Source of the DNA: Sphaerisporangium krabiense
GTDB taxonomy: Bacteria; Actinomycetota; Actinomycetes; Streptosporangiales; Streptosporangiaceae
Direction of reading: 5' to 3'
NCBI RefSeq assembly: GCF_014200435.1
Contig: NZ_JACHBR010000001.1
Location: 3,131,501-3,195,500 of the forward strand
Length of the DNA stretch: 64,000 bases
A model generated the notes under the pieces. It worked only from the letters and a program-made list of their open reading frames with translations, did no database searches and was not told the origin of the DNA. Position 1 is the first letter of the stretch. Each line of letters begins with the position of its first letter. Shown here piece after piece: positions 10,363 to 64,000 of this stretch. The position numbers and the translations under genes were made by a program.

Positions 10363-11151
10363 TCATGGCACGGCGTAGGCGCTGTCGCGCACGTCGGTGA
10401 TCGCCATGTGGCCGGGCGCGTGCCCGATCGCGAAGGGCGGCCGTGACGCGGCCACGGCCGCCTGTGGCGTCACCCCGCAGGCCCAGAACACCGGGATCTC
10501 GCCCGGCCGCACCTCCACCGGGTCGCCGTAGTCGGGCCGGCCGAGGTCGGCGACGCCCAGCGCCGCCGGGTCGCCCACGTGCACCGGGGCGCCGTGCACG
10601 GCCGGGTAGCGGGACGTGACCCGCACCGCGGTCGCGACCAGCTCGGGCGGCACCGGCCGCATCGACACCACCAGCGGCCCCGACAGCGTCCCCGCCGGAC
10701 GGCACGCCCGGTTCGTCCGGTACATCGGGACGTTGCTCTTGCGTTCCAGGTGCCGGACGGGCACGCCCGCGTCCAGCAGGGCCGCCTCGAAGGTGAAACT
10801 GCAGCCGATCAGGAAGCACACCAGGTCGTCACGCCAGTGGTCCCGCACGTCGCCCACCTCGGCCACCTGCTCGCCGTGCTCGTAGACGCGGTAGGCGGGC
10901 AGGTCGGTGCGCAGGTCGCCGTCGAAGATCGAGGCCGAGATCTCCCCGGGCTCGGTGACGTCGAGCACCGGGCACGCCTTCGGGTTGCGCTGCGCGAACA
11001 GCAGGAAGTCGTAGGCGCGGTCCTTGGGCAGCGCCAGCAGGTTCGCCTGCGCCCATCCCGCCGACCAGCCCGCGGTGGGGGTCACCAGGCCGTCGCGGAA
11101 GGCGGCGCGCGCGTCGCGCGGGGGCACCATCGCCGGGTCGAGCACTGTCAT
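10363..11151 (-). CDS. DUF1445 family putative hydro-lyase (D-glutamate cyclase-like)
   Basis: A 262-aa protein of the DUF1445 family, with the hallmark stretch [24 protein letters not shown] and [11 protein letters not shown] near the C-terminus. Members are annotated as putative hydro-lyases, and a related domain in mammals is D-glutamate cyclase, which makes 5-oxo-D-proline. That fits the neighbouring 5-oxoprolinase genes well. I chose the ATG at 11151 over upstream starts because it has a GAAGGGA ribosome binding site. It is the last gene of the pxp run, about 115 bp after pxpC. Confidence 0.85.
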
Positions 11152-54107: not shown

Positions 54108-55430
54108 TCAGGTCGCGCGGGGGGCGCAGGAGACGCCGGTGAGGAGGAGGGTGGGGGCGATGTTGCGGTTGGCCACGGTCTGCTGCTGTTTGACGCAGCC
54201 GGTGTCGTAGACGGCCGGATCGTCGCAGACGGCCCTGATCGAGGACAGGGTCTGCACGACGTCGCCGGTGACGTGGATGGGCGACAGAGGCTCGCACAGG
54301 CGGCCGTCGCGTATCCGGCGGGCCCGGTCGACCTGGGCGACGAAACGGCCGGTCACCGGGTCGCAGGTCGCGCGGCCGATGGCCTCGGCGTAGACGCCGT
54401 CGCGGACGTCGGCGAGCACGCCGGGCGCGGAGTCGGGGCCGGGGAGCACCGACAGCGTGGTCATGCGCGGCAGGGCCGCGTAGCGGTAGTCGGTGCGGTG
54501 CGCGTGCCCGCCCGGGTCGCCGGCGGCTCCGGAGGCCGGCCCGTCCGCCGAGGTGAGCGCCCCGGAGGTGAGCGTGCCCGCGACGTGGCCGGAGTCCAGG
54601 AGGGTGACCGCGCGGCCGGGGTTGCCGTGGTCGTCGGCGTGCAGGCTGGCCCACGAGGACGGGGCGGCGGAGTCGTCCACCACGGTGAGGCCGGGGTGGG
54701 AGAGCCGCCGGCCCATCAGCGCGCGCAGCCGGTTCTCCGGGTGCCGGAACACGTCGGCCTCCAGCAGGTGGCCGCACAGCTCGTGGAGCAGCACGCCCGA
54801 GCAGGCGGGCGCGGCGAGCATGACCGTCTCGCCGTCCGGGGGCGGGACGCGGACGGCGTGCAGGCGGTAGGCGGCGACGGCGTCGTCCGCCGCGGCGCCC
54901 ACGGCGTCGGGCGGGAGGCGCGTGCCGGCGAAGGCGGGGCCGGTGAAGACCGCGGAGTCCGGCGGCCCCGCCCAGAGCAGCAGGCGGCCGCGGTGCCGGT
55001 CGGCGGACCGCACTGGGCCGCCCCTGCGGCACGCGGCGATCGACTCCAGCAGGACGAACACCCGGCCGCGGACGGGGACGCCGCCGGCCCGCTCGCGCAC
55101 GACCGCCACCGCCGCCAGCAGCTCGTCCAGAACGCCCGCGTACGCGTCCTCGCCCGCCCCGGACCGCGCGTGGTCGCCGAGGCCCGCGACCACCTTTTCG
55201 CGGCGCGATTCCAGCCCGGACAGCGTCATGCCCTCGATGCCGTGATAGGAGCCGCGTTCCCCATGTTCGTCGAAATCGACGAAGAGGGCGCGGCGGGCCT
55301 GCGCGTAGACGTGGGCGGTTTCGGCGTCGCGCGCGGCGGCGTGGTGCGCGGCGTCCTGGACGGCCGCGGCGGTTCGCGCCCACGCGGCGGCGAGATCGGC
55401 CTGCGCGCCGTCCGTCACGGTAAAGGTCAT
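54108..55430 (-). CDS. TldD/PmbA-like zinc metalloprotease
   Basis: A 440-aa TldD-family protein with the zinc motif HELCGH inside LLHELCGHLLEADVF (normally HExxGH, with the downstream Glu) and a C-terminal third Cys/His-containing stretch (GDVVQTLSSIRAVCDD, NIAPTLLLTGVSC). TldD/TldE enzymes digest unfolded peptides and cut the leaders of some RiPPs. No TldE partner is adjacent. ATG at 55430 follows GGGGGAT. It is divergent from the RiPP-like cluster, separated by 350 bp. Confidence 0.85.
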   Translation of the reverse strand: MTFTVTDGAQADLAAAWARTAAAVQDAAHHAAARDAETAHVYAQARRALFVDFDEHGERGSYHGIEGMTLSGLESRREKVVAGLGDHARSGAGEDAYAGVLDELLAAVAVVRERAGGVPVRGRVFVLLESIAACRRGGPVRSADRHRGRLLLWAGPPDSAVFTGPAFAGTRLPPDAVGAAADDAVAAYRLHAVRVPPPDGETVMLAAPACSGVLLHELCGHLLEADVFRHPENRLRALMGRRLSHPGLTVVDDSAAPSSWASLHADDHGNPGRAVTLLDSGHVAGTLTSGALTSADGPASGAAGDPGGHAHRTDYRYAALPRMTTLSVLPGPDSAPGVLADVRDGVYAEAIGRATCDPVTGRFVAQVDRARRIRDGRLCEPLSPIHVTGDVVQTLSSIRAVCDDPAVYDTGCVKQQQTVANRNIAPTLLLTGVSCAPRAT

Positions 55431-55779
55431 ATCCCCCGATATTAGCCGCCGAGTTGCGGGTCCGCGCATATCTCGCGCATATAACTCCGACTATAGAAAC
55501 TGCCGGGCGCGTACCGTGATCATGCGGCCGCTGACCGTGTGTAAACCGCACCCCCAGGTGCGGATAATTGTTAAGGCGCGCCTTGAATAAAGGTGGCCGC
55601 ACTGGCTCTGACCTGCGGTTTCATGTGTTATCGATTGCCCCGGTTCCGCGATGCACAATAGTCAGGAACGACGGCTTTTCGGGTCTTGCGATGCCCCAAA
55701 CCGGCTACTACGATCGAGCCTCAATCCCGGTGAGATGGGGTCGTCTGCCTCATCTACCAGCCTGCTTTGGAGGTGAACT
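55431..55779. other. Divergent promoter region of the TldD gene and RiPP-like cluster
   Basis: This 349-bp stretch is less GC-rich than its surroundings and holds no other supported gene. It contains the direct repeat described at 55463-55482, a hairpin CCGCAC-CCCCAG-GTGCGG (55546-55563), and the ribosome binding site GGAGGT of the small peptide. The 5' leader of the peptide gene would be long (about 275 nt) if the TATAGA at 55492 is used. Confidence 0.5.
55463..55497 (+). promoter_or_regulatory. SARP-like direct repeat and -10 box
   Basis: CGCGCATAT occurs at 55463-55471 and again at 55474-55482, an 11-bp period. TATAGA (55492-55497) starts 9 bp after the second copy. Repeats of 11-bp period close to the -10 box are the known layout of SARP-activated promoters, where the activator replaces a -35 box. 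Confidence 0.45.
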
Positions 55780-55830
55780 ATGGGCGAGGACATCGTGGTC
55801 GAAGAGGAGCTGGGCACGAACGCCATCTGA
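55780..55830 (+). CDS. 16-aa acidic peptide, candidate RiPP precursor or leader
   Basis: ATG 55780 has GGAGGT (55769-55774) at 5 nt, the best ribosome binding site of the region. The peptide is MGEDIVVEEELGTNAI, then TGA. After the TGA the same frame continues with FPFECAGVV and ends at TAA (55858-55860), giving a 26-residue reading if the TGA is read through. The acidic VVEEEL part and a CxGV-type end recall mycofactocin precursors (VEE..., CGVY). It stands before an RRE-bearing gene, which supports a precursor role. Confidence 0.6.
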   Translation: MGEDIVVEEELGTNAI

Positions 55831-55847
55831 TTCCCCTTCGAATGCGC

Positions 55848-55865
55848 CGGCGTCGTATAACGCCG
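55848..55865 (+). other. Hairpin just after the peptide gene
   Basis: CGGCGT-CGTATA-ACGCCG forms a 6-bp stem with a 6-nt loop, 17 nt past the TGA. It could limit read-through into the downstream genes, or, if the TGA is recoded, act as a recoding element. Both are inference. Confidence 0.4.
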
Positions 55866-55987
55866 TGAAACGGCAACGACGGCGCCGGGTCGATTGGATT
55901 CGGACAATGCGTGTTCGTCCTCGTAGATCGAGCCCCCAGGGCCCGGTCTACGAGGACCTGGGTCCGCTGGAACGCTTCCTGGGAGGG

Positions 55988-57103
55988 ATGAATTCATTGG
56001 CCACCGCACCGCCCGCCCCCGGCGAGGGCTGGGCACTGAGCGACGAGGTTGAGCACCTTATTCGCTGGGCGGCGAAGGTCGCGGAGGAGGAGTTCACGGG
56101 CGCCGACGGCGTCGACTCCGTCTACCTGGGCGGTTCGCTGCTCGCCGGCCTGGGCAGCCCCACCAGCGACATCGACGTCTTCGTGGTGCGGCAGGGCGTC
56201 ACGGGCGACGAGGTCCCGGCACAGGTGGTGTCCGACTCCCGGCGTTTCGACGTCGAGTCGCTCCCTCCCGGCCACCTCCTGAAGCTCGCGCGCGACGTCA
56301 CCGCGTTCCCGCGGGCGGCCTACACGAACCTGGAGGTCGTCCACCTCAGCGAGAGCCGGTACGACGCCGCGGTCCGCCTGCTCTACAGCAGGCCGGTGGC
56401 GGAGGGCGACGAGTACCGCGAGGCGGTCGCCCACCTGCGCGAGAACACGGTCCCGCTGACCCGCATGATCATGGCGAAATGGTCCACCGAGTGCATCAAC
56501 ATCCTGGAGGACGCGCTCGGCGCCCTGGCCGGGGAGTCCTACGACGACGCCCTGTTCAGCTCGGCGGAGCTGATGCAGCCCGCGGCGCAGGTGTTCCTCG
56601 CCGGATGCGGCGACCTGTACGTGAAGTACAAGTGGATACTCCGCAAGCTCCGCAGAAGCGCGGGGGAGAACTTCCCCTACGACGGGTTCTGCCGGCTCAT
56701 GGGCTCCTGGCCGGACGGTGTCGCGGACAAGAAACGGCTGGTCGAGGACCGGATCCGCCTGTGCCAGGCCATGGCGGTGGCCGGGCTCACCGGCGGCTGG
56801 GACGGGCCCGCGGCCTCACGCTGGTCCACCTGGGACGTCCGCGGCCCGGGCCTGGTGCGCGCGCCGGAATGGATGCCGCTGCGCGCCGCCGACCGCATCG
56901 TGCTGGCGAAGTCCATCGACTCGGTGTACCGGCTGTCGGAGCAGGGGCTGACGCTGTGGGGGCTGTGCGACGGCCGCGAGCACTCCGTGGTGGTGGACGA
57001 CATGGTGCGCCGGCTCGGCGACCCCGGGTTGCGGCCCGACGTCGAGAGATACCTCGACCGGTTCCTCCAGATGGGGCTGGTACGCGCGGGAGCGGGGGAC
57101 TAG
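55988..57103 (+). CDS. Nucleotidyltransferase fused to a PqqD-like RRE domain
   Basis: A 371-aa protein. The N-terminal third carries the pol-beta/MNT-type nucleotidyltransferase motif GGSLLAGLGSPTSDID (Gly48-Asp63), with the D-x-D metal site at 61-63. A helical middle follows (CINILEDALGALAGESYDDALFS in parts). Residues about 295-370 look like a PqqD-type RiPP recognition element: SVYRLSEQGLTLWGLCDG, DDMVRRLG, VERYLDRFLQMGLV. I know of no described RiPP enzyme with this fusion. The start is uncertain: ATG 55988 and TTG 55997 share GGGAGGG (better spaced for the TTG), and ATG 55907 is in frame. Confidence 0.75.
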   Translation: MNSLATAPPAPGEGWALSDEVEHLIRWAAKVAEEEFTGADGVDSVYLGGSLLAGLGSPTSDIDVFVVRQGVTGDEVPAQVVSDSRRFDVESLPPGHLLKLARDVTAFPRAAYTNLEVVHLSESRYDAAVRLLYSRPVAEGDEYREAVAHLRENTVPLTRMIMAKWSTECINILEDALGALAGESYDDALFSSAELMQPAAQVFLAGCGDLYVKYKWILRKLRRSAGENFPYDGFCRLMGSWPDGVADKKRLVEDRIRLCQAMAVAGLTGGWDGPAASRWSTWDVRGPGLVRAPEWMPLRAADRIVLAKSIDSVYRLSEQGLTLWGLCDGREHSVVVDDMVRRLGDPGLRPDVERYLDRFLQMGLVRAGAGD

Positions 57104-57106
57104 GAG

Positions 57107-58441
57107 ATGGGGACCGCAGAGGGTCCGGAGCCCGCGCTGCACGCGGGCGTGGTGCTCGGCGCGGAGGGGACGCGCGCCCAGACGGCTCGTCTTGAGGGCC
57201 GTGAGCTGGTGTTGGAGAGCGGCTCCGGTGCGCCGCGCGACCTGGCCGGCGGCGGGTACTTCGTCGAGGCGCTCCCGGTCGAGATGCACTGCCACAGCAT
57301 CGGCCAGGTCGACTTCTCCGACTTCTCCGGCATCGACCTGATCGAGCTCAACGCCGCCGCGGCCCGCGAAGGCGTCGTGTGCGTGCCCACGGTCTACCTC
57401 CGGCACGACAGGCTGGAGGAGTTCGTCACGTTCATGCGCCGGTTCCACGAGCTGCGCAAGCGCGGCGCGCTGCCGTTCGTGCCCGGCATGGCCCTGGAGG
57501 GCCCGCTGCTGGCCAGCCACGGCGGCACCCCCGCCGCCACGGTGTGGCCGCCGAACCGGCACGAATGGGAACGCCTGGCCATGTGCGGACGGCTCGGCCT
57601 GCTCTACATGGTCATCTCGCCCGACTCGCTGACGCCCGACTCCGACCTGTACGACCGGCTCGACCGCAAGCACCCGGACCTGCCGTGGATCATCAGGCTC
57701 CTGGTCGAGTCCGGCGTGCGCCCCGCGCTCGGCCACTACACCAAGGCCGACGCCGCGCGGGCCGCCGAGCTGACCTACGAGCTCGTGAACGTCGCCTGGT
57801 CGGTGGAGACGCCGCTCAAGGGCACCCGGGTGGTCACCGACCACCTGTTCAACGACATGCCCCTGCCGATCAAGCACGCGTTCCGCACCCGCAGGGCCCG
57901 GGAGCGGCGCGACGCCCTGATCGCCTCCTACGACCTGCCGTCCTGGAACCTGTCGGACCTCCCCGAGCAGGTCGGCCCGGTCGCCGCCGCCATCATGCGG
58001 CTGTGCGCGGCCGGTCGCGTGGCCTCCTGCGTGAACTTCGACGGCGAGCACGTCGACCTGGCGATCGCCGCCCGCGCGGTCGAGGTCGTGGACCGCAGGA
58101 ACATCATGCTCATGACCGACCGCTGCGACGCCGCGCGGCTCGGCGGCCAGGCGCTGCACCACAACCCCGAGAACTCCCTGTGGTACCAGGACGACGACGT
58201 CGTGGCGGCGGGGTCGCAGCCCATCGACCGGCAGATCGGCAACGCCCGCGCGGCCGGCGTCGGCGAGGACGAGATCTGGGACCTGGTCTCCTTCACCGCC
58301 TACGCCGCGTTCGGCCTCGGCGACGACCCCTGGCTCGGCCCGGGCGTCGGCTCGTTCGTCCTGCCCGAGGACGCGGCGGGGGACGCCTCCCTGCGGCGCG
58401 TCGCGACGCTCGCCGCCGCGCCGCCGCGGAGGCCCCGGTGA
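57107..58441 (+). CDS. NagA-like amidohydrolase-superfamily protein
   Basis: A 444-aa TIM-barrel hydrolase with the N-acetylglucosamine-6-phosphate deacetylase pattern: VEMHCHS (His61, His63), MALEGPLL (Glu), ALGHYTKAD (His), TDHLFNDMP (HLFN-type), NFDGEHVD (D-G-x-H) and LMTDRCDA (catalytic Asp). It is a metal-dependent amidase or deacetylase. In this cluster it probably acts on a cluster product or donor rather than on GlcNAc-6-P. It starts 3 bp after the previous stop and its own stop overlaps the ATPase start (GTGA). Confidence 0.8.
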   Translation: MGTAEGPEPALHAGVVLGAEGTRAQTARLEGRELVLESGSGAPRDLAGGGYFVEALPVEMHCHSIGQVDFSDFSGIDLIELNAAAAREGVVCVPTVYLRHDRLEEFVTFMRRFHELRKRGALPFVPGMALEGPLLASHGGTPAATVWPPNRHEWERLAMCGRLGLLYMVISPDSLTPDSDLYDRLDRKHPDLPWIIRLLVESGVRPALGHYTKADAARAAELTYELVNVAWSVETPLKGTRVVTDHLFNDMPLPIKHAFRTRRARERRDALIASYDLPSWNLSDLPEQVGPVAAAIMRLCAAGRVASCVNFDGEHVDLAIAARAVEVVDRRNIMLMTDRCDAARLGGQALHHNPENSLWYQDDDVVAAGSQPIDRQIGNARAAGVGEDEIWDLVSFTAYAAFGLGDDPWLGPGVGSFVLPEDAAGDASLRRVATLAAAPPRRPR

Positions 58442-59400
58442 GCGGCCCCGCGCCGCACGGCGGCCTCGCCGTGCGCGAGCTGCGCCGGGTCTTCACGAGC
58501 AGGAAGAAGCCGCCCCGCACGGCGCTGGACGGCGTCACCTTCGACGTCGCGCCCGGCGAGCTGGTCACCCTGCTCGGCCCGAACGGCGCGGGCAAGACCA
58601 CGACCGCCCGCATCCTCGTCACCCTGCTCGAACCCACCTCGGGGACGGCCACCGTGGCGGGCGCGGACGTGCGGACCGAGCCCCGCGCGGTCCGCCGCCG
58701 CTGCGGATTCTCCTTCGGCGGCGACACCGGCCTCTACCCCCGGCTCACCGCCCTGGAGAACCTCAGGTTCTTCGGCACCATGTACGGCATGGCGGGCCGC
58801 CCGCTGACCGCGCGCGCGTCCGAGCTGCTCGGCGAGATGGGCCTCGGCGACCGCGCCGGCGACAAGGTGGAGACCTTCTCGCGCGGCATGCGGCAGCGCC
58901 TGCACATCGCCAGGGCCCTGCTGCACGACCCGCCCGTCCTGGTCCTGGACGAGCCGTCCGCCGGCCTGGACCCGGCGGCGGGCCGCCAGCTCAGGACGCT
59001 GGTGCACAAGCTCGTCGACGACGGCCGCGCCGTGCTGCTGACCACGCACGACCTGGTGGAGGCCGAGCAGCTCAGCGACCGGGTGCTGGTGCTGCGCGCG
59101 GGGGTCGTCATCGCCGAGGCGTCCCCCGCCCGGCTGCGCGCGCTCGCCGGCGACGCGCTCGGCACGCGCATCCAGCTCGAACTGCACGAGGACGTGGCGG
59201 CGCCGGAGGCGGCCCTGGCCGCGTGCCCCGGACTGCGCGGCGTCCGCGTGGAGGGCGGGGTGTGGGCGGTCGACGTGACCGACGGCCCCGCCGCCGCGAC
59301 GTGGATCCTCCAGACGTTCGGCTCCCAGGTCGTCAACCTCAGCGTCGCGCCGCCGTCGCTGGAGGACGCCTACCTGGACCTGGTCGGGGACCCGGCGTGA
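58438..59400 (+). CDS. ABC-2 type transporter ATPase
   Basis: A 320-aa ATPase of the drug/peptide exporter class: Walker A GPNGAGKTT, signature FSRGMRQRLHIARAL, Walker B VLVLDEPSAGLD, and switch His in LLTTHDLVEAEQLSD. A C-terminal domain of about 90 residues follows. GTG at 58438 overlaps the amidohydrolase stop. It serves the two permeases downstream. Confidence 0.92.
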   Translation: MSGPAPHGGLAVRELRRVFTSRKKPPRTALDGVTFDVAPGELVTLLGPNGAGKTTTARILVTLLEPTSGTATVAGADVRTEPRAVRRRCGFSFGGDTGLYPRLTALENLRFFGTMYGMAGRPLTARASELLGEMGLGDRAGDKVETFSRGMRQRLHIARALLHDPPVLVLDEPSAGLDPAAGRQLRTLVHKLVDDGRAVLLTTHDLVEAEQLSDRVLVLRAGVVIAEASPARLRALAGDALGTRIQLELHEDVAAPEAALAACPGLRGVRVEGGVWAVDVTDGPAAATWILQTFGSQVVNLSVAPPSLEDAYLDLVGDPA

Positions 59401-60128
59401 CCGCCGTCGTCCTCGGCTCGGCGCGCACCCACCTGCGCCAGCAGGGCATGACGCCGCTGACGTGGATGACCGGCGGGGTGCTGCCCGTCTGCCTGGCGTG
59501 GATCCTGCACGTCAAGACCGGCGAGTCCGGGCTGCGGCTCGTCGCCGGGGTCAGCGCCGCCGCCATGATCGACACCGTGGCGATCCTCATCGTGTTCGCC
59601 GTCCTGTTCGAGCGCCAGTGGAACACGCTGGAGATGGCCGCCGCCGCGCCCCGGGGCGTCCTGCCCATGCTCGCCGGGCGGTTCCTCGGCATCGCCGTGC
59701 AGGCCCTGCCGTCGCTCGTCGTCAGCGGCGTCTTCGTCCAGCTCGTCTGGGGCGGCGTCAGGATCGACCGGCCGCTGCCCACGCTGCTCGGCATGCTCGT
59801 CCTCACGGTGTCCGTCGTGGTCGTCATGCTCCCGCTCGCGGTCACCGTGCTCCGGTTCCGCTACGCCGCCGGCATGACCAACGGCGTGCCCGCCCTGCTG
59901 CTCGCGGTCAGCGGCGCGCTGATCCCCATCTGGCAGATGCCGCCGCTCCTGCAGAGCTGGGCCAGGGCGCTGCCGCTCACGTGGGCCGTGGACGCCGTCG
60001 AGGGCGGCGACTGGAACGACCTCGGCGTCGCGACCGCCCTCGCGGCGGCGTGGGCCGTGGTGGGCGCCGCGCTGTTCCACCTGGCCCTGCGCGGCATGCG
60101 CGGCGAGCCCGACGCCTACCGGATGTGA
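59397..60128 (+). CDS. ABC-2 type transporter permease
   Basis: A 243-aa protein with six predicted helices and an ABC-2 layout (ERQWNTLEMAAAAPRG, the conserved coupling helix; PLPLTWAVDAVEGG-like end). GTG at 59397 overlaps the ATPase stop by 4 bp. It pairs with the next permease to form the export channel. Confidence 0.85.
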   Translation: MTAVVLGSARTHLRQQGMTPLTWMTGGVLPVCLAWILHVKTGESGLRLVAGVSAAAMIDTVAILIVFAVLFERQWNTLEMAAAAPRGVLPMLAGRFLGIAVQALPSLVVSGVFVQLVWGGVRIDRPLPTLLGMLVLTVSVVVVMLPLAVTVLRFRYAAGMTNGVPALLLAVSGALIPIWQMPPLLQSWARALPLTWAVDAVEGGDWNDLGVATALAAAWAVVGAALFHLALRGMRGEPDAYRM

Positions 60129-60132
60129 CGCG

Positions 60133-60888
60133 ATGAACCGCGTGCTCACCCACGCCTGGCTGTCCTACAAGGGCCTGTTCACCTGGCTCAACCCGTGGGG
60201 GTACCTGTCGTCGCGCATCGTGCGCCCGCTGGCCCTCGGCGCGGTGTTCGTCTCGCTCGGCGGGGGCGCCTTCGCCGACCGGGAACGGCTGCTGGTCGGC
60301 GCGACGCTGCTCACGATGTCCGGCAGCGTCCTGCTCGGCGTCGGCCTCGCGGTCGGCAACGAGCGCGGGTACAACACGATGGGCGGCCTCCTGGCCGCGC
60401 CGCACCGCCTCCCGGGCACGCTCGTCGTCCGGGCGCTCCCGCACGTGGTCGACGGCCTGATCACCACCGCGATGACCGCGGCCATCGTGGCGGGCCTGTT
60501 CGGCATCTCCCTGGACGCCGGCCAGTGGCTGCGGCTCGCCGCCGCGGTGGCGGCCGTCGGGCTGAGCGGTGCGGGCCTCGGCCTGGCCGCCTCCTCCTAC
60601 GCCGTGCGCTACCGCGACGTGTTCCTCGTGCCGAACCTGTCCCAGGTCGCGCTGATCGGACTGTCCGGCGCGCTGGTGGAGGTGGAGCACCTGCCGGAGG
60701 TCCTGCGGTGGGTGTCGGCCGTCCTGCCCGTGCACCACGCGATGGAGGCGGTCGCCCCGGGCGGCGGCCTGGCCGCCGGGCTCGCCGCCGAACTGCTCGT
60801 CGGCGTGGCCTGGGGGGCCGCCGGCTGCGCGCTCATCACCTGGACCGCGCGCCTGGCGCGCACGCGCGGTTCGTTCGACCTGACCTGA
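60133..60888 (+). CDS. ABC-2 type transporter permease
   Basis: A 251-aa six-helix permease (NERGYNTMGGLLAAPHRLPGT coupling helix, LPEVLRWVSAVLPVHHAMEAV). It starts 4 bp after the first permease. With the ATPase and its partner it would export the product or act in self-resistance. Confidence 0.85.
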   Translation: MNRVLTHAWLSYKGLFTWLNPWGYLSSRIVRPLALGAVFVSLGGGAFADRERLLVGATLLTMSGSVLLGVGLAVGNERGYNTMGGLLAAPHRLPGTLVVRALPHVVDGLITTAMTAAIVAGLFGISLDAGQWLRLAAAVAAVGLSGAGLGLAASSYAVRYRDVFLVPNLSQVALIGLSGALVEVEHLPEVLRWVSAVLPVHHAMEAVAPGGGLAAGLAAELLVGVAWGAAGCALITWTARLARTRGSFDLT

Positions 60889-60914
60889 TGGCATGGACTG
60901 GAGGGTGAACCGAC

Positions 60915-61601
60915 GTGTCCGACGTTCTCGATGCGCTCGACAAGCTCGACGTGGACTGGACGAACCTGCCCGAGACGCACCGCACGACCCGTGAGATCCT
61001 CGCCGAGCTGGCCGCCGACCGGCGGACGCTGCGGACGATGATCGACCGGGTCCGCGAGACGCCGTCGCTGCTGGCGCTGTGCGAACGGCACCGCCTGCTC
61101 GACAAGATCGTCGTGCACGACGCCCCGAACGGCGTGCGGCTGCGCGTCCACATCTCCACCAAGGAGCACCGCGACCGCCCGCACGACCACCGGTTCTCCT
61201 TCACCAGCAGGATCCTCACCGGCGCCTACCGGCACACCCGCCACGAGCTGGTCGGCGAGCTGGACGAGTCCGTCCCCTGGCACGTGCAGGACGACGTCGA
61301 CGCGGTGCTGTCCGAGGCCAAGGCGGTGCCGCGCTTCGTCACCCGGCAGACCGCGGGCAGCACGTACTCGCTGCACCACACCGAGGTCCACACCACCTTC
61401 ACCACGCCCGACACCGTCTCGCTGTTCCTGCGCGGCCCCTCCGAGAAGGACCGCTCGCTGATCACCGAGCGGGAGACCGGGCGGCTGTGGTGGCGGTACG
61501 GCGCGGACAAGGAACGGCAGGACCGCCGCGCCCGCAAGCAGATGCAGCCGGCGGAGTTCGAGGAACTGGTCGGCCGGCTGCACCGGCTCGACGTGATCTG
61601 A
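60915..61601 (+). CDS. Conserved His-rich protein, cupin-like, function unknown (copy 1)
   Basis: A 228-aa soluble protein. The core has DKIVVHDAPNGVRLRVHIS, RPHDHRFSFTSRILTGAYRHT and YSLHHTEVHTTFTTPDTVSLFLRG. The paired H-x-H and later His residues are spaced as in a cupin barrel metal site, but I cannot place the family. The next gene is a clear paralogue, so the pair arose by duplication. GTG at 60915 follows GGAGGGTGAACC. Confidence 0.6.
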   Translation: MSDVLDALDKLDVDWTNLPETHRTTREILAELAADRRTLRTMIDRVRETPSLLALCERHRLLDKIVVHDAPNGVRLRVHISTKEHRDRPHDHRFSFTSRILTGAYRHTRHELVGELDESVPWHVQDDVDAVLSEAKAVPRFVTRQTAGSTYSLHHTEVHTTFTTPDTVSLFLRGPSEKDRSLITERETGRLWWRYGADKERQDRRARKQMQPAEFEELVGRLHRLDVI

Positions 61602-61615
61602 CGGGGGACGCGCAC

Positions 61616-62314
61616 GTGACTTCCATCCAGACCTCCGGGACCCGCCCCGTGCCCACCGAGGACGAGATCCTGGCCGTGATGCACGACCTGCCCGCGGTGA
61701 ACTGGGACGACATCGAGGACGCCGCCCGGGTCACCCACGAGATCGCCCACCGGCTCGGCGACGACCGCGCGCTGCTCGCCGCCCTCGTGGACCGGGTGCC
61801 CGGGGTGCCCGCGCTGCGGGAGAAGTGCGAGTGCCACGCCCTCGACGACAAGATCGTCATCTGGGACGAGCCGGAGAAGGGCCTGCGCATCCGGCTGCGG
61901 CTGGCCAACACCGACCAGTACGAACGGGTGCACAACCACCGCTACTCGTTCACCGCCTACCTGCTGCACGGCGTCTACCACCACACGCTGTACGCCACCG
62001 ACCAGGTCCTGGACGAGAACGCCGACGTCAGCCGGTTCTGGCCGTACTTCGTGCGCGAGGAGCGCACCGGCGACGTGATCACCCTGCACCACGAGCAGCT
62101 GCACACCACCATCACCGACCCGGACACGATCTCGCTCATGATCCAGAGCCCCGCCCAGAAGCGCAGGGCCTTCATGATCAGAAGGTCGGACGGCCACGTG
62201 TGGTGGCGTCTCGGCGCGGCCGACGAGGACGACGCCCGCAAACGCGAGATCCGCATGCCCGACGAGCGCTTCACCTACTGGCGCGACCGCCTCGCGCACC
62301 TGGGCGTCCTGTGA
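61616..62314 (+). CDS. Conserved His-rich protein, cupin-like, function unknown (copy 2)
   Basis: A 232-aa paralogue of the previous protein, sharing DDKIVIWDEPEKGLRIRLRL, VHNHRYSFTAYLLHGVYHHT, ITLHHEQLHTTITDPDTISLM and the VWWRLGA end. The conserved His set in both copies argues for a metal-dependent enzyme, perhaps an oxygenase. GTG at 61616; its stop overlaps the next start (GTGA). Confidence 0.6.
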   Translation: MTSIQTSGTRPVPTEDEILAVMHDLPAVNWDDIEDAARVTHEIAHRLGDDRALLAALVDRVPGVPALREKCECHALDDKIVIWDEPEKGLRIRLRLANTDQYERVHNHRYSFTAYLLHGVYHHTLYATDQVLDENADVSRFWPYFVREERTGDVITLHHEQLHTTITDPDTISLMIQSPAQKRRAFMIRRSDGHVWWRLGAADEDDARKREIRMPDERFTYWRDRLAHLGVL

Positions 62315-63120
62315 ACGACCTGCTCCCCGCCACCGGCACGACCGACCGGGTCCTCGTAACCCCGGCGACGCCGGCCGGCACGTCCGGGACACCCGGTACG
62401 TCCGGCGTGACCCGGCTGGACTACGGGCCCGGCGAGCGTCAGCACGTGCTGGTCTACCGGCCCGCCACTCCCGCCAGGGCCGCGGTGGTGCTCGTGCACG
62501 GCGGCTTCTGGCGTCCGGAGAAGGACGCGGCGAGCATGGAGGCCGCCTGCCTGGACCTCGCCGCGCGCGGGGTCCTCGCCGCGAGCGCCGAGTACCGGAC
62601 CGTGGGCGCGGGCGGCGAGTGGCCGGGCTGCGCCGACGACGTGACGGCGGCCGTGCGGGCGCTGTGCGAGAGCTCCGGCGTGCCGCTCGCGGCGACCGTC
62701 CTCGCCGGGCACTCGGCGGGCGGGCACCTCGCCCTGGTCGCCGCCACGCGCCTCGGCGGGCTCGGCGCCGTGGCCGGCCTGGCCCCGATCACCGACCTGG
62801 AGGCCGCAGAACGCGACGACCTCGGCACGGGGGCCGTGCGCGGCCTGCTCGGCGGCCGGGCCGCCGCCGAACGGCCGGACGCGTCCCCGCTGCGCGGCCC
62901 GGCGCCCGGCTGCCCGGTACTGCTCGTGCACGGCGCCGCCGACCAGGCCGTCCCGGTCTCCCAGACCACCTCCTACGCCGACGCCGTGCGCGCGAAGGGC
63001 GGACGGGTCCGGGTCCGCCTGATCCCGGAGGCCCGCCACATGCACCTGGTCAAACCCGGCCGCCCGGCCTGGCGGGACGTGTCCGACGAGCTCCTGTCCC
63101 TCACCGGGAACCTCCGATGA
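62311..63120 (+). CDS. Alpha/beta hydrolase (kynurenine formamidase/esterase-like)
   Basis: A 269-aa hydrolase with the HGGFWRP oxyanion motif, nucleophile elbow AGHSAGGHLAL, Asp in VHGAADQAVP and His near ARHMHL. An N-terminal Thr/Gly/Pro-rich stretch (TPATPAGTSGTPG) precedes the fold. It may hydrolyse an ester or amide in the cluster product. GTG at 62311 overlaps the previous stop and the stop overlaps the formyltransferase start. Confidence 0.85.
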   Translation: MNDLLPATGTTDRVLVTPATPAGTSGTPGTSGVTRLDYGPGERQHVLVYRPATPARAAVVLVHGGFWRPEKDAASMEAACLDLAARGVLAASAEYRTVGAGGEWPGCADDVTAAVRALCESSGVPLAATVLAGHSAGGHLALVAATRLGGLGAVAGLAPITDLEAAERDDLGTGAVRGLLGGRAAAERPDASPLRGPAPGCPVLLVHGAADQAVPVSQTTSYADAVRAKGGRVRVRLIPEARHMHLVKPGRPAWRDVSDELLSLTGNLR

Positions 63121-63974
63121 CCGCCGCGCCGCTTCTCGACGGGCGGCCGCGGCCGTTGCGGGTGATGGCGCTGGTCTCGGCCACGGGGGCGAACCTGACG
63201 ACCACCCTGGAGCTGGCCGCGGAGCGCCCCGACCTGCTGCGGGTCGTGCTCGTCGCCTCCGACCGCGAGCGGGCGGGCGCGCTGGACGTCGCGGCCCGCG
63301 CGGGGGTGCCCACCTGGCCGGGCCGGTTCGCCGCCGAGTGCGGCAACCACCGCGCGTGCGTCACCGAGGAGGACCGCGCCGCCTACCGGGCGCGCGCCGA
63401 GGCGTTCCACGACCGCCTGCTCGCCCGGGTGCGGGAGTTCGAGCGCGCGGACGGCGAGATCGACCTCGTCGTGCTGGCCTACCACCGCTGGATCCACGGC
63501 GGCTTCCTCGCCCACTTCCGCGACCGGATCATCAACCAGCACCCCGGCGACCTGGCGTCCCTGGACGGCTCCGGCGCGCGTGCCCTGGTCGGGATGGACC
63601 CGGTGGGCGTCGCGCTGCGCCGGGGCGACACGGCCACCCGCACCTCGACGTTCCTGGTCGACGACACCCACGACGGCGGCCCCGTCCTCGCCCGCGGCCC
63701 CGCGCTGGAGTACCACGGCCCGAGGCCGCCGTCCCGCGAGGACGTCGACGCGCACGAGCGGCGCCAGAAGGCGCACAGCGACCGCCCGGTCCTGCGCTGG
63801 GTCCTCACCGCGCTCGCCGAGGGCCGCCTCGCCCTCGACCCGTCCCGCCCCCGCCCGGACGGCACCGCGGCGGTCCTGCTGGACGGCGCCGAGACCCCTC
63901 TCGGCGGCCACGACCTCGCCGCGGACCCCACCCACGAGCAGGACCGTGCCGGGGCGAAGGCGGGTGCCTCGTGA
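63117..63974 (+). CDS. Formyltransferase-fold protein (PurN/GART-like)
   Basis: A 285-aa protein with the formyltransferase fold: MALVSATGANLTTTLELA at the phosphate-binding start, DLVVLAYHRWIHGGFLAHFRDRIINQHPGDL with the catalytic N-x-H motif, and a later D (TFLVDDTHDGGPVLARG), as in GART. It may transfer a one-carbon unit from formyl-folate to an amine of the product. ATG at 63117 overlaps the previous stop (ATGA). Confidence 0.82.
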   Translation: MTAAPLLDGRPRPLRVMALVSATGANLTTTLELAAERPDLLRVVLVASDRERAGALDVAARAGVPTWPGRFAAECGNHRACVTEEDRAAYRARAEAFHDRLLARVREFERADGEIDLVVLAYHRWIHGGFLAHFRDRIINQHPGDLASLDGSGARALVGMDPVGVALRRGDTATRTSTFLVDDTHDGGPVLARGPALEYHGPRPPSREDVDAHERRQKAHSDRPVLRWVLTALAEGRLALDPSRPRPDGTAAVLLDGAETPLGGHDLAADPTHEQDRAGAKAGAS

Positions 63975-64000
63975 CCGCGCTCGCCGACGCCGCCCTCGAC
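63971..64000 (+). CDS. Start of a further cluster gene, cut by the window edge
   Basis: GTG 63971 overlaps the formyltransferase stop (GTGA) and opens a frame VTALADAALD that runs off the window. By spacing it belongs to the same operon. The product cannot be judged from ten residues. Confidence 0.5.
   Translation, partial: MTALADAALD

Follow-up and report, generated by a model that had tools for sequence, protein, structure and literature searches.

What does a nucleotidyltransferase (NTase) do when it is fused to a peptide-binding domain and encoded behind a very short open reading frame (ORF)? This question is raised by an operon that begins near the end of the window, the 64,000-nucleotide stretch of the 8.5 Mb Sphaerisporangium krabiense genome that we analyzed (C1:3131501-3195500). 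The operon extends to about 68.5 kb, and we followed it there on a genomic stretch that reaches past position 64000 (L002, whose positions equal window positions minus 54500). A first-pass annotation had read its 371-residue enzyme as an N-terminal pol-beta-type NTase joined to a C-terminal PqqD/RRE domain (RRE, RiPP recognition element, the leader-binding module of ribosomally synthesized and post-translationally modified peptides, RiPPs). We found that both domains are present, that the short peptide upstream is conserved in relatives, and that the system is very probably a RiPP pathway; provided that the gap in the literature described below holds, it represents a RiPP class that has yet to be described.

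We first consider the enzyme. The PqqD family (PF05402) matches residues 312-365 with 24.0 bits, barely over its gathering score of 23.4 bits, and NTP_transf_2 (PF01909) matches residues 34-67 with 23.3 bits, barely over its gathering score of 21 bits. Among the 11 aligned homologues (E ≤ 0.1), NTP_transf_2 is found in 10 and PqqD in 8. An AlphaFold2 model made from the 11-sequence alignment has a mean pLDDT of 91.9 and a pTM of 0.91, and its C-terminus consists of strands at residues 296-299, 304-309 and 312-316 followed by helices at 318-326, 332-343 and 346-361, which is the RRE order; the fold on which the first-pass annotation depended is predicted here with high confidence. When the profile of the RRE domain was compared to the PDB, the best chain was the lasso-peptide RRE TbiB1 (5v1u), a weak match (E 0.018). 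Residues 1 to ~280 match kanamycin nucleotidyltransferase, ANT(4'), by Foldseek (1e-5) and by VIA (Z 12.0-12.4 with 235-241 residues aligned, as compared to Z 9.5 for LinB), at 12-14% sequence identity. G49, S60, D61, D63 and D88 are invariant across the 11 divergent homologues, and because D61, D63 and D88 are among them, all three expected metal-binding acids are retained. The enzyme has what characterizes ANT(4')/KNTase: a pol-beta NTase fold, a helical domain and three metal-binding acids. It differs from ANT(4') in its extra RRE domain and in its peptide-cluster context instead of aminoglycoside resistance. The NTase and RRE calls come from separate lines of evidence, each with a modest sequence score; the Pfam score and the modelled secondary structure establish that an RRE domain is present, and leader binding by this domain is predicted. 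The genomic context argues for a peptide over an aminoglycoside as the probable substrate.

The candidate precursor is the 16-residue peptide encoded just upstream of the enzyme gene (Table 1). In genome G587, whose enzyme is 96% identical, the peptide MGEDIVVEEELGTNAI is unchanged. In S. corydalis, whose enzyme is 53-55% identical, the ORF in the equivalent position encodes MGDEIIEEEELGMIVI and is preceded by AAAGGAGGTG. When the intergenic regions of the window and S. corydalis were aligned, the ribosome-binding site and the ORF aligned and most other sequence did not. The two peptides are identical at 9 of 16 residues, and their codons show 7 synonymous and 7 non-synonymous differences. Both have the leader MGxxIxxEEELG, while their last four residues share only the final Ile. 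The conservation in relatives and the intergenic alignments rule out that the upstream peptide is a chance ORF.

A search with the single window protein returned no related loci, and a profile was required. With the profile, ten loci were found in named genomes, and the enzyme was detected in 12 of 393 Streptomyces genomes (~3%). In nine genomes (Nonomuraea deserti, Micromonospora MW-13, Kitasatospora xanthocidica and the Streptomyces SID14478, abyssomicinicus, viridochromogenes, seoulensis, G1097 and G1045), the ORF directly upstream of the enzyme encodes a (D/E)DIxEF leader and a tandem tripeptide core. Its forms include MEDILEF(DAV)n, MEDIKEF...(xDV)n, MENLDVIEVEDDIVEFESDSDNAANVANIGNI..., MQDVIEIDEDIVEF...(NNI)n and MENIDVIEL(E/D)DDIVEF...(ANV)n; the core types are (ANV)n, (GNI/ANI)n, (NNI)n, (VDV)n and (VDA)n, with up to 18 units. 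The tandem-ANV precursors of S. seoulensis and S. abyssomicinicus are 56-59 residues long. Read from the C-terminus, the repeat unit is X-(Asn/Asp)-(Val/Ile/Ala), and the central Asn or Asp (Asx) is constant along the array. Thus, the first-pass annotation's expectation of a conserved short acidic peptide upstream in homologous loci was borne out, with a tandem tripeptide-repeat precursor in the distant ones. In most tandem precursors (the NNI array of SID14478 is the exception), codons differ synonymously between units, indicating that the tripeptide itself is kept, beyond any DNA repeat. Scanning 2.27 Mb of strand-bases for ORFs with a C-terminal period of 3 gave 16, of which 15 are these precursors, all just upstream of an NTase-RRE gene and including duplicate copies of loci, and one is unrelated; their position upstream of NTase-RRE is beyond chance. 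TldD and an ABC exporter adjoin the enzyme in all these tandem loci, which belong to a group that we call class A, and a TldE-type protein is also present. In a tree, the tandem-core enzymes form an Asp-core clade and an Asn-core clade (100/99 each), and the window enzyme pairs with that of S. corydalis (100/100), outside both.

These precursors bear on a non-RiPP explanation, in which the PqqD-like domain would be a winged helix with a regulatory function, the NTase an enzyme of self-resistance or antitoxin type, and the products of the short ORFs attenuator peptides. MNT antitoxins and aminoglycoside NTases do have a common fold, and the finding that little besides the ribosome-binding site and ORF aligns in S. 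corydalis is what a regulatory upstream ORF would show. However, the relatives' tandem tripeptides are conserved as protein sequence while their codons vary synonymously, their ORFs accompany TldD/TldE and exporters, and a second precursor family, found next to radical SAM enzymes, has a similar leader motif. Such evolution is unexpected for attenuator peptides, and we consider this explanation highly improbable.

That second precursor family is part of another architecture. In class B (L041, G204, L072 and L088-L092; not every gene was checked at each locus), the genes next to the NTase-RRE encode a radical SAM protein whose B12-binding match is weak, a protein with a cyclophilin domain and an ABC exporter; L041 additionally has a PEP-utilising enzyme. 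The class B peptide of L072, MEDLMEDLQELEFSALAPEEAIALEDRVYLFGVHADRSRIQ, has relatives in the remaining 7 loci (tblastn 2e-12 to 5e-8), and the leader motif is E(L/I)(E/D)F. In class C (L109-L117), the NTase is ~265 residues long and has no RRE, and it adjoins a separate PqqD protein of 94-104 residues (Pfam 1.7e-11 and 3.8e-13). Class C carries the tailoring cassette of the window, in L113 in an order near that of the window (NagA-like, cupin A, cupin B, hydrolase, PurN-like, NDK-like, aminotransferase, Bfd; 38-74% identical), and additionally encodes an AurF-like diiron protein and one that resembles asparagine synthetase. Eight class C loci have a 22-residue peptide MK(K/Q)YxKPxxKK..., which in L109 ends in SNAV, resembling TNAI of the window. 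Class C and fused NTases are homologous (hhalign 99.2%); the fused and discrete RREs match weakly (probability 33%), so their shared origin is not established. A gene-encoded precursor with a conserved leader and a variable core was found in 12 loci of class A and in 8 each of classes B and C. The pairing of the NTase-RRE family with a second conserved precursor in class B, and of an RRE-less NTase plus discrete RRE with 22-residue peptides and nearly the same cassette in class C, is further evidence for the pathway that we propose below. With their AurF-like diiron and asparagine-synthetase-like proteins, discrete RRE and 22-residue peptides, L109-L117 also make up a further RiPP-like family.

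For the enzymes of Streptosporangium saharense, G635, L093, L094 and L096 we detected no precursor, nor for the distant matches G623, G446, G685 and G631. Two of the distant NTase homologues, from different genera (L027:13417-14586, minus strand, in G623, and L029:9914-10996 in G446), have an identical C-terminal tail, RFGCHPKAAS, that could be a substrate or a signal. In L095 (reversed, 10689-10754), a 21-residue acidic peptide, MIANNDDDFEIEGEEPTTLPT, with a 9-base ribosome-binding-site match lies just downstream of a divergent NTase gene and is a possible additional precursor type.

How would such an enzyme act on so short a peptide? We propose the following for leader binding, donor and acceptor, order of steps and product. 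The RRE domain would bind the acidic leader EDIVVEEEL of the 16-residue precursor ((D/E)DIxEF in relatives), and the NTase domain would then attach either a nucleotidyl group or a phospho-sugar unit to the short core, which is TNAI in the window and consists of X-Asn/Asp-Val/Ile units in relatives. The cassette (NagA-like protein, cupin-like pair, hydrolase, PurN-like and NDK-like proteins, aminotransferase, HAD phosphatase and Bfd-like ferredoxin) would make or remodel the attached group. TldD/TldE proteases trim leaders in other RiPPs; here, they would digest the leader, or digest up to the modified residue, releasing a modified mini-core that the ABC-2 transporter would export. We lean slightly toward this proposal as a whole. 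The group transferred could be a nucleotide, a phosphate, a sugar or formyl; for nucleotidyl transfer, even if only transient, we see somewhat less than an even chance.

Several observations weigh against the proposal. For the window enzyme, the scores against PqqD and NTP_transf_2 exceed their cut-offs only narrowly. The cores TNAI (window) and MIVI (S. corydalis) fit the X-Asx-Val/Ile pattern inexactly. The NagA-like gene is missing in several class A genomes, so that the attached group may vary by locus. Finally, the tandem cores (ANV, NNI, VDV, VDA) carry no hydroxyl, whereas the fold-related aminoglycoside NTases adenylate hydroxyls; the acceptor would therefore have to be an Asx side chain, one of the termini or a previously installed group, and of these the Asx side chain or the core terminus is likely. 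In one specific form of the proposal, which we hold tentatively and consider doubtful, the NTase-RRE would nucleotidylate the Asx of every tandem unit, yielding many nucleotidylated tripeptides per precursor that would be exported, possibly as a Trojan-horse antibiotic; the nucleotide would perhaps be unusual, with the NagA/PurN/NDK/aminotransferase cassette supplying it.

The constant Asx also fits a different role, in which the NTase only activates: it would adenylate either the core C-terminus or the side chain of Asx, and departure of the nucleotide would give a succinimide, nitrile, isoAsp, amide or other condensed product. There is one invariant Asx per tandem unit, Asn- and Asp-type cores follow separate NTase clades, and class C brings an asparagine-synthetase-like enzyme. 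In microcin C, the nucleotide reaction occurs at Asn. Microcin C also shows that nucleotide chemistry can take place on a ribosomal peptide of very small size (PMC9239234). Yet NTases of the pol-beta fold usually pass a nucleoside monophosphate to stable acceptors, and we judge that transient activation is unlikely to be the whole role of the enzyme.

We compared the cassette proteins to known families and followed the NagA-like gene across genomes. The first-pass annotation had named an amidohydrolase; the gene stands, and by fold it is more precisely NagA-like. Its model (pLDDT 63, pTM 0.70) matches NagA by Foldseek (3e-11) and by VIA (Z 20-23.5, best over 303 residues, with the next family at 15), no sequence match was found in Pfam or the PDB, and H61, H63, E131, H210, H246 and D338 are invariant. 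Anywhere in their genomes, S. corydalis, Nonomuraea deserti, Micromonospora MW-13, S. viridochromogenes and G1045 lack the NagA-like gene, and it is present in 14 Streptomyces genomes of the sample searched above that have no NTase-RRE match. These absences, and the occurrence without NTase-RRE, rule out the cassette as the class-defining feature; a strict tie of Asn cores to the NagA-like gene also fails, in S. viridochromogenes (ANV repeats, no gene). Thus, the NagA-like gene is optional across class A genomes and the whole cassette probably is too, so the cassette probably elaborates the attached group and does not carry out the defining step. A second, more distant NagA-like homologue (E 5e-72) lies in S. 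abyssomicinicus (G1130, the genome of L038) at C5:1808196-1809176, on the same contig as the cluster and ~1 Mb from it.

The other cassette proteins were assigned with varying precision. The two His-rich proteins of the first-pass annotation are indeed paralogues and may be cupins, as their motif suggests; sequence searches of Pfam and the PDB gave no match, and H90, H92, H155 and H159 are invariant in five relatives. The formyltransferase-like gene is present and can be narrowed to PurN-like; because several loci that share the core lack the mobile cassette to which it belongs, it does not provide the defining step. The NDK-like protein is a relative of nucleoside diphosphate kinases (PF00334; its profile matches structures of these kinases), with K59, N179 and H182 invariant. 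Both TldD and TldE score above the PF19289 (PmbA/TldD) cut-off, and TldD has the zinc motif HELCGH (HExxxH). The HemK/PrmC-like methyltransferase has weaker homologues elsewhere in the genome, so the operon copy may be a tailoring enzyme that acts on the peptide rather than on release factors, perhaps on an amide nitrogen.

The sugar-type folds in the cassette raise the question of whether the NTase domain is instead a (phospho)glycosyl transferase like PsmN, with an NDK-like or other kinase-like step adding a phosphate and the NTase adding a sugar to give a (phospho)glycopeptide. PsmN, an annotated nucleotidyltransferase acting on a ribosomal peptide, puts hexoses on the phosphorylated Ser of pseudomycoidin (PMC9266682). 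Besides the NagA-like protein, the HAD phosphatase matches hexitol-phosphatase and beta-phosphoglucomutase models below cut-off, and there is an AXE1 esterase in Kitasatospora and a Gfo/Idh/MocA oxidoreductase in SID14478. In contrast, no glycosyltransferase was recognised in the cluster, the tandem cores carry no hydroxyl, and the NagA-like gene is wholly absent in several class A genomes. PsmN itself differs in that it targets the phosphorylated C-terminal Ser of a lasso peptide and is not class-defining; the passage on PsmN in that review mentions no RRE fusion and leaves nucleotidylation by PsmN possible (PMC9266682). We regard glycosyl transfer as a possible but unlikely role.

Like the first-pass annotation, we found no described RiPP class with this gene set, and no description of a cluster defined by an NTase-RRE fusion, in the literature searched, which was mostly open-access, so that this absence is not conclusive. 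The nearest tandem-tripeptide precedent is the thiovarsolins, which are alike in their actinobacterial precursor, tandem short cores and tripeptide-sized product (APR); the thiovarsolin (TfuA-YcaO RiPP) family spans non-repeating to repeating precursors (PMC6511847). They differ in using YcaO-TfuA thioamidation, in cores with Pro-Arg rather than Asx-Val, and in a seven-gene minimal cluster without NTase-RRE or TldD/TldE (PMC6511847). Scanning the cluster proteins with Pfam gave no match to YcaO, TfuA or ThiF, and no oxidative decarboxylase. MccB of microcin C is a ThiF-like adenylyltransferase (for a review, PMC12250964), whereas the window cluster has the kanamycin-nucleotidyltransferase fold, an RRE and a separate leader. 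If nucleotidylation is right, microcin C would be alike in its very short ribosomal peptide, nucleotide chemistry and export (PMC9239234). Daptides are alike in RRE-guided RiPP discovery and a class III aminotransferase, and some daptide clusters contain nucleotidyltransferases, as ancillary genes only (PMC10036551). Daptide clusters combine an oxidative decarboxylase, an aminotransferase and an RRE-containing protein with a domain of unknown function (DUF); the window cluster lacks this set, and its aminotransferase scores 104 bits against the daptide model (cut-off 450). A 2025 RRE survey does not mention nucleotidyltransferases in its main text (PMC12710340). Lasso biosynthesis (B1 RRE plus cyclase) resembles class C in its discrete PqqD/RRE, asparagine-synthetase-like protein and YxxP-type leader, but cores of ~3-4 residues are too short for a lasso; the window core has 4-5 residues, and among the window-cluster proteins scanned there is no asparagine-synthetase-like cyclase or B2-type protease.

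For genome mining, the NTase-RRE would serve as a class-defining enzyme and the precursors could be found by a (D/E)DIxEF leader and tandem X-Asx-Val/Ile cores. A simple core set (precursor, one enzyme, TldD/E and exporter) is common to otherwise differing clusters. The expected products are approximately tripeptide-sized, and their chemistry could be new to RiPPs. A single enzyme family with fused or separate RRE and at least three precursor types also offers a direct test of how leader-guided substrates are acquired.

Table 1. Features of the locus in window numbering, including genes beyond the window end.
Feature	Position	Strand	Basis
TldD-type zinc metallopeptidase subunit, divergently transcribed, candidate leader peptidase/core-releasing protease	54108..55469	-	Pfam PF19289 1.1e-30; NCBIfam TldD models 2e-26
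Shine-Dalgarno GGAGGTG of the short peptide	55769..55775	+	sequence
Putative precursor peptide MGEDIVVEEELGTNAI, 16 aa	55780..55830	+	leader motif EDIVVEEEL, putative core (G)TNAI
Nucleotidyltransferase-RRE fusion, 371 aa	55988..57103	+	Pfam, alignment, AlphaFold2, fold match
RRE/PqqD domain of fusion, ~residues 288-371	56849..57100	+	PF05402, secondary-structure order, TbiB1 profile match
NagA-like amidohydrolase (N-acetylglucosamine-6-phosphate deacetylase fold)	57107..58441	+	structure model, Foldseek, VIA
ABC exporter ATPase, DrrA type	58438..59400	+	PF00005; TIGR01188 1e-73, under subfamily cut-off
ABC-2 exporter permease 1	59397..60128	+	PF01061
ABC-2 exporter permease 2	60133..60888	+	PF01061
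Cupin-like His-rich protein A (tailoring cassette)	60915..61601	+	conserved histidines; putative cupin, by motif
Cupin-like His-rich protein B, paralogue of A	61616..62314	+	37% identity to A; same conserved histidines
Alpha/beta hydrolase	62311..63120	+	PF20434 1.8e-15, PF00326
Formyltransferase-like protein, PurN-related	63117..63974	+	PF00551 1.4e-10; TIGR00639 PurN 3.8e-12, under equivalog cut-off
NDK-like protein	63971..65014 (L002:9471-10514; 63971..64000 inside window)	+	PF00334 above cut-off
Class III aminotransferase, beyond window	65011-66315
HAD phosphatase, beyond window	66305-66979
Bfd-like ferredoxin, beyond window	66976-67179
TldE, beyond window	67176-68486		PF19289 above cut-off
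HemK/PrmC-like methyltransferase, beyond window	68568-69497 (L002:14068-14997)		81-base gap after TldE

All genes that the first-pass annotation had named between 55780 and 64000, including the ABC-2 exporter and the hydrolase, were found where it had placed them. Its single overlapping operon is supported from 57107 onward by tight packing, with intergenic gaps of 3, -4, -4, 4, 26, 14, -4, -4 and -4 bases, and its suggestion to extend the locus past 64000 added the genes listed as beyond the window, where the gaps are -4, -11, -4 and -4. Further downstream, a second short peptide with a ribosome-binding site, MKSTTKIKKITVRRTSDVRLTSATCQCTYPAAN, is encoded at 70688-70789 (L002:16188-16289), and G587 carries this peptide with one difference. 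It is followed (L002:16394-19733) by a TPR protein gene and one for a 407-residue membrane protein; the latter contains a HEASH motif and looks M50-like by eye, although Pfam gave no match. This region looks like a separate, neighbouring RiPP-like locus.

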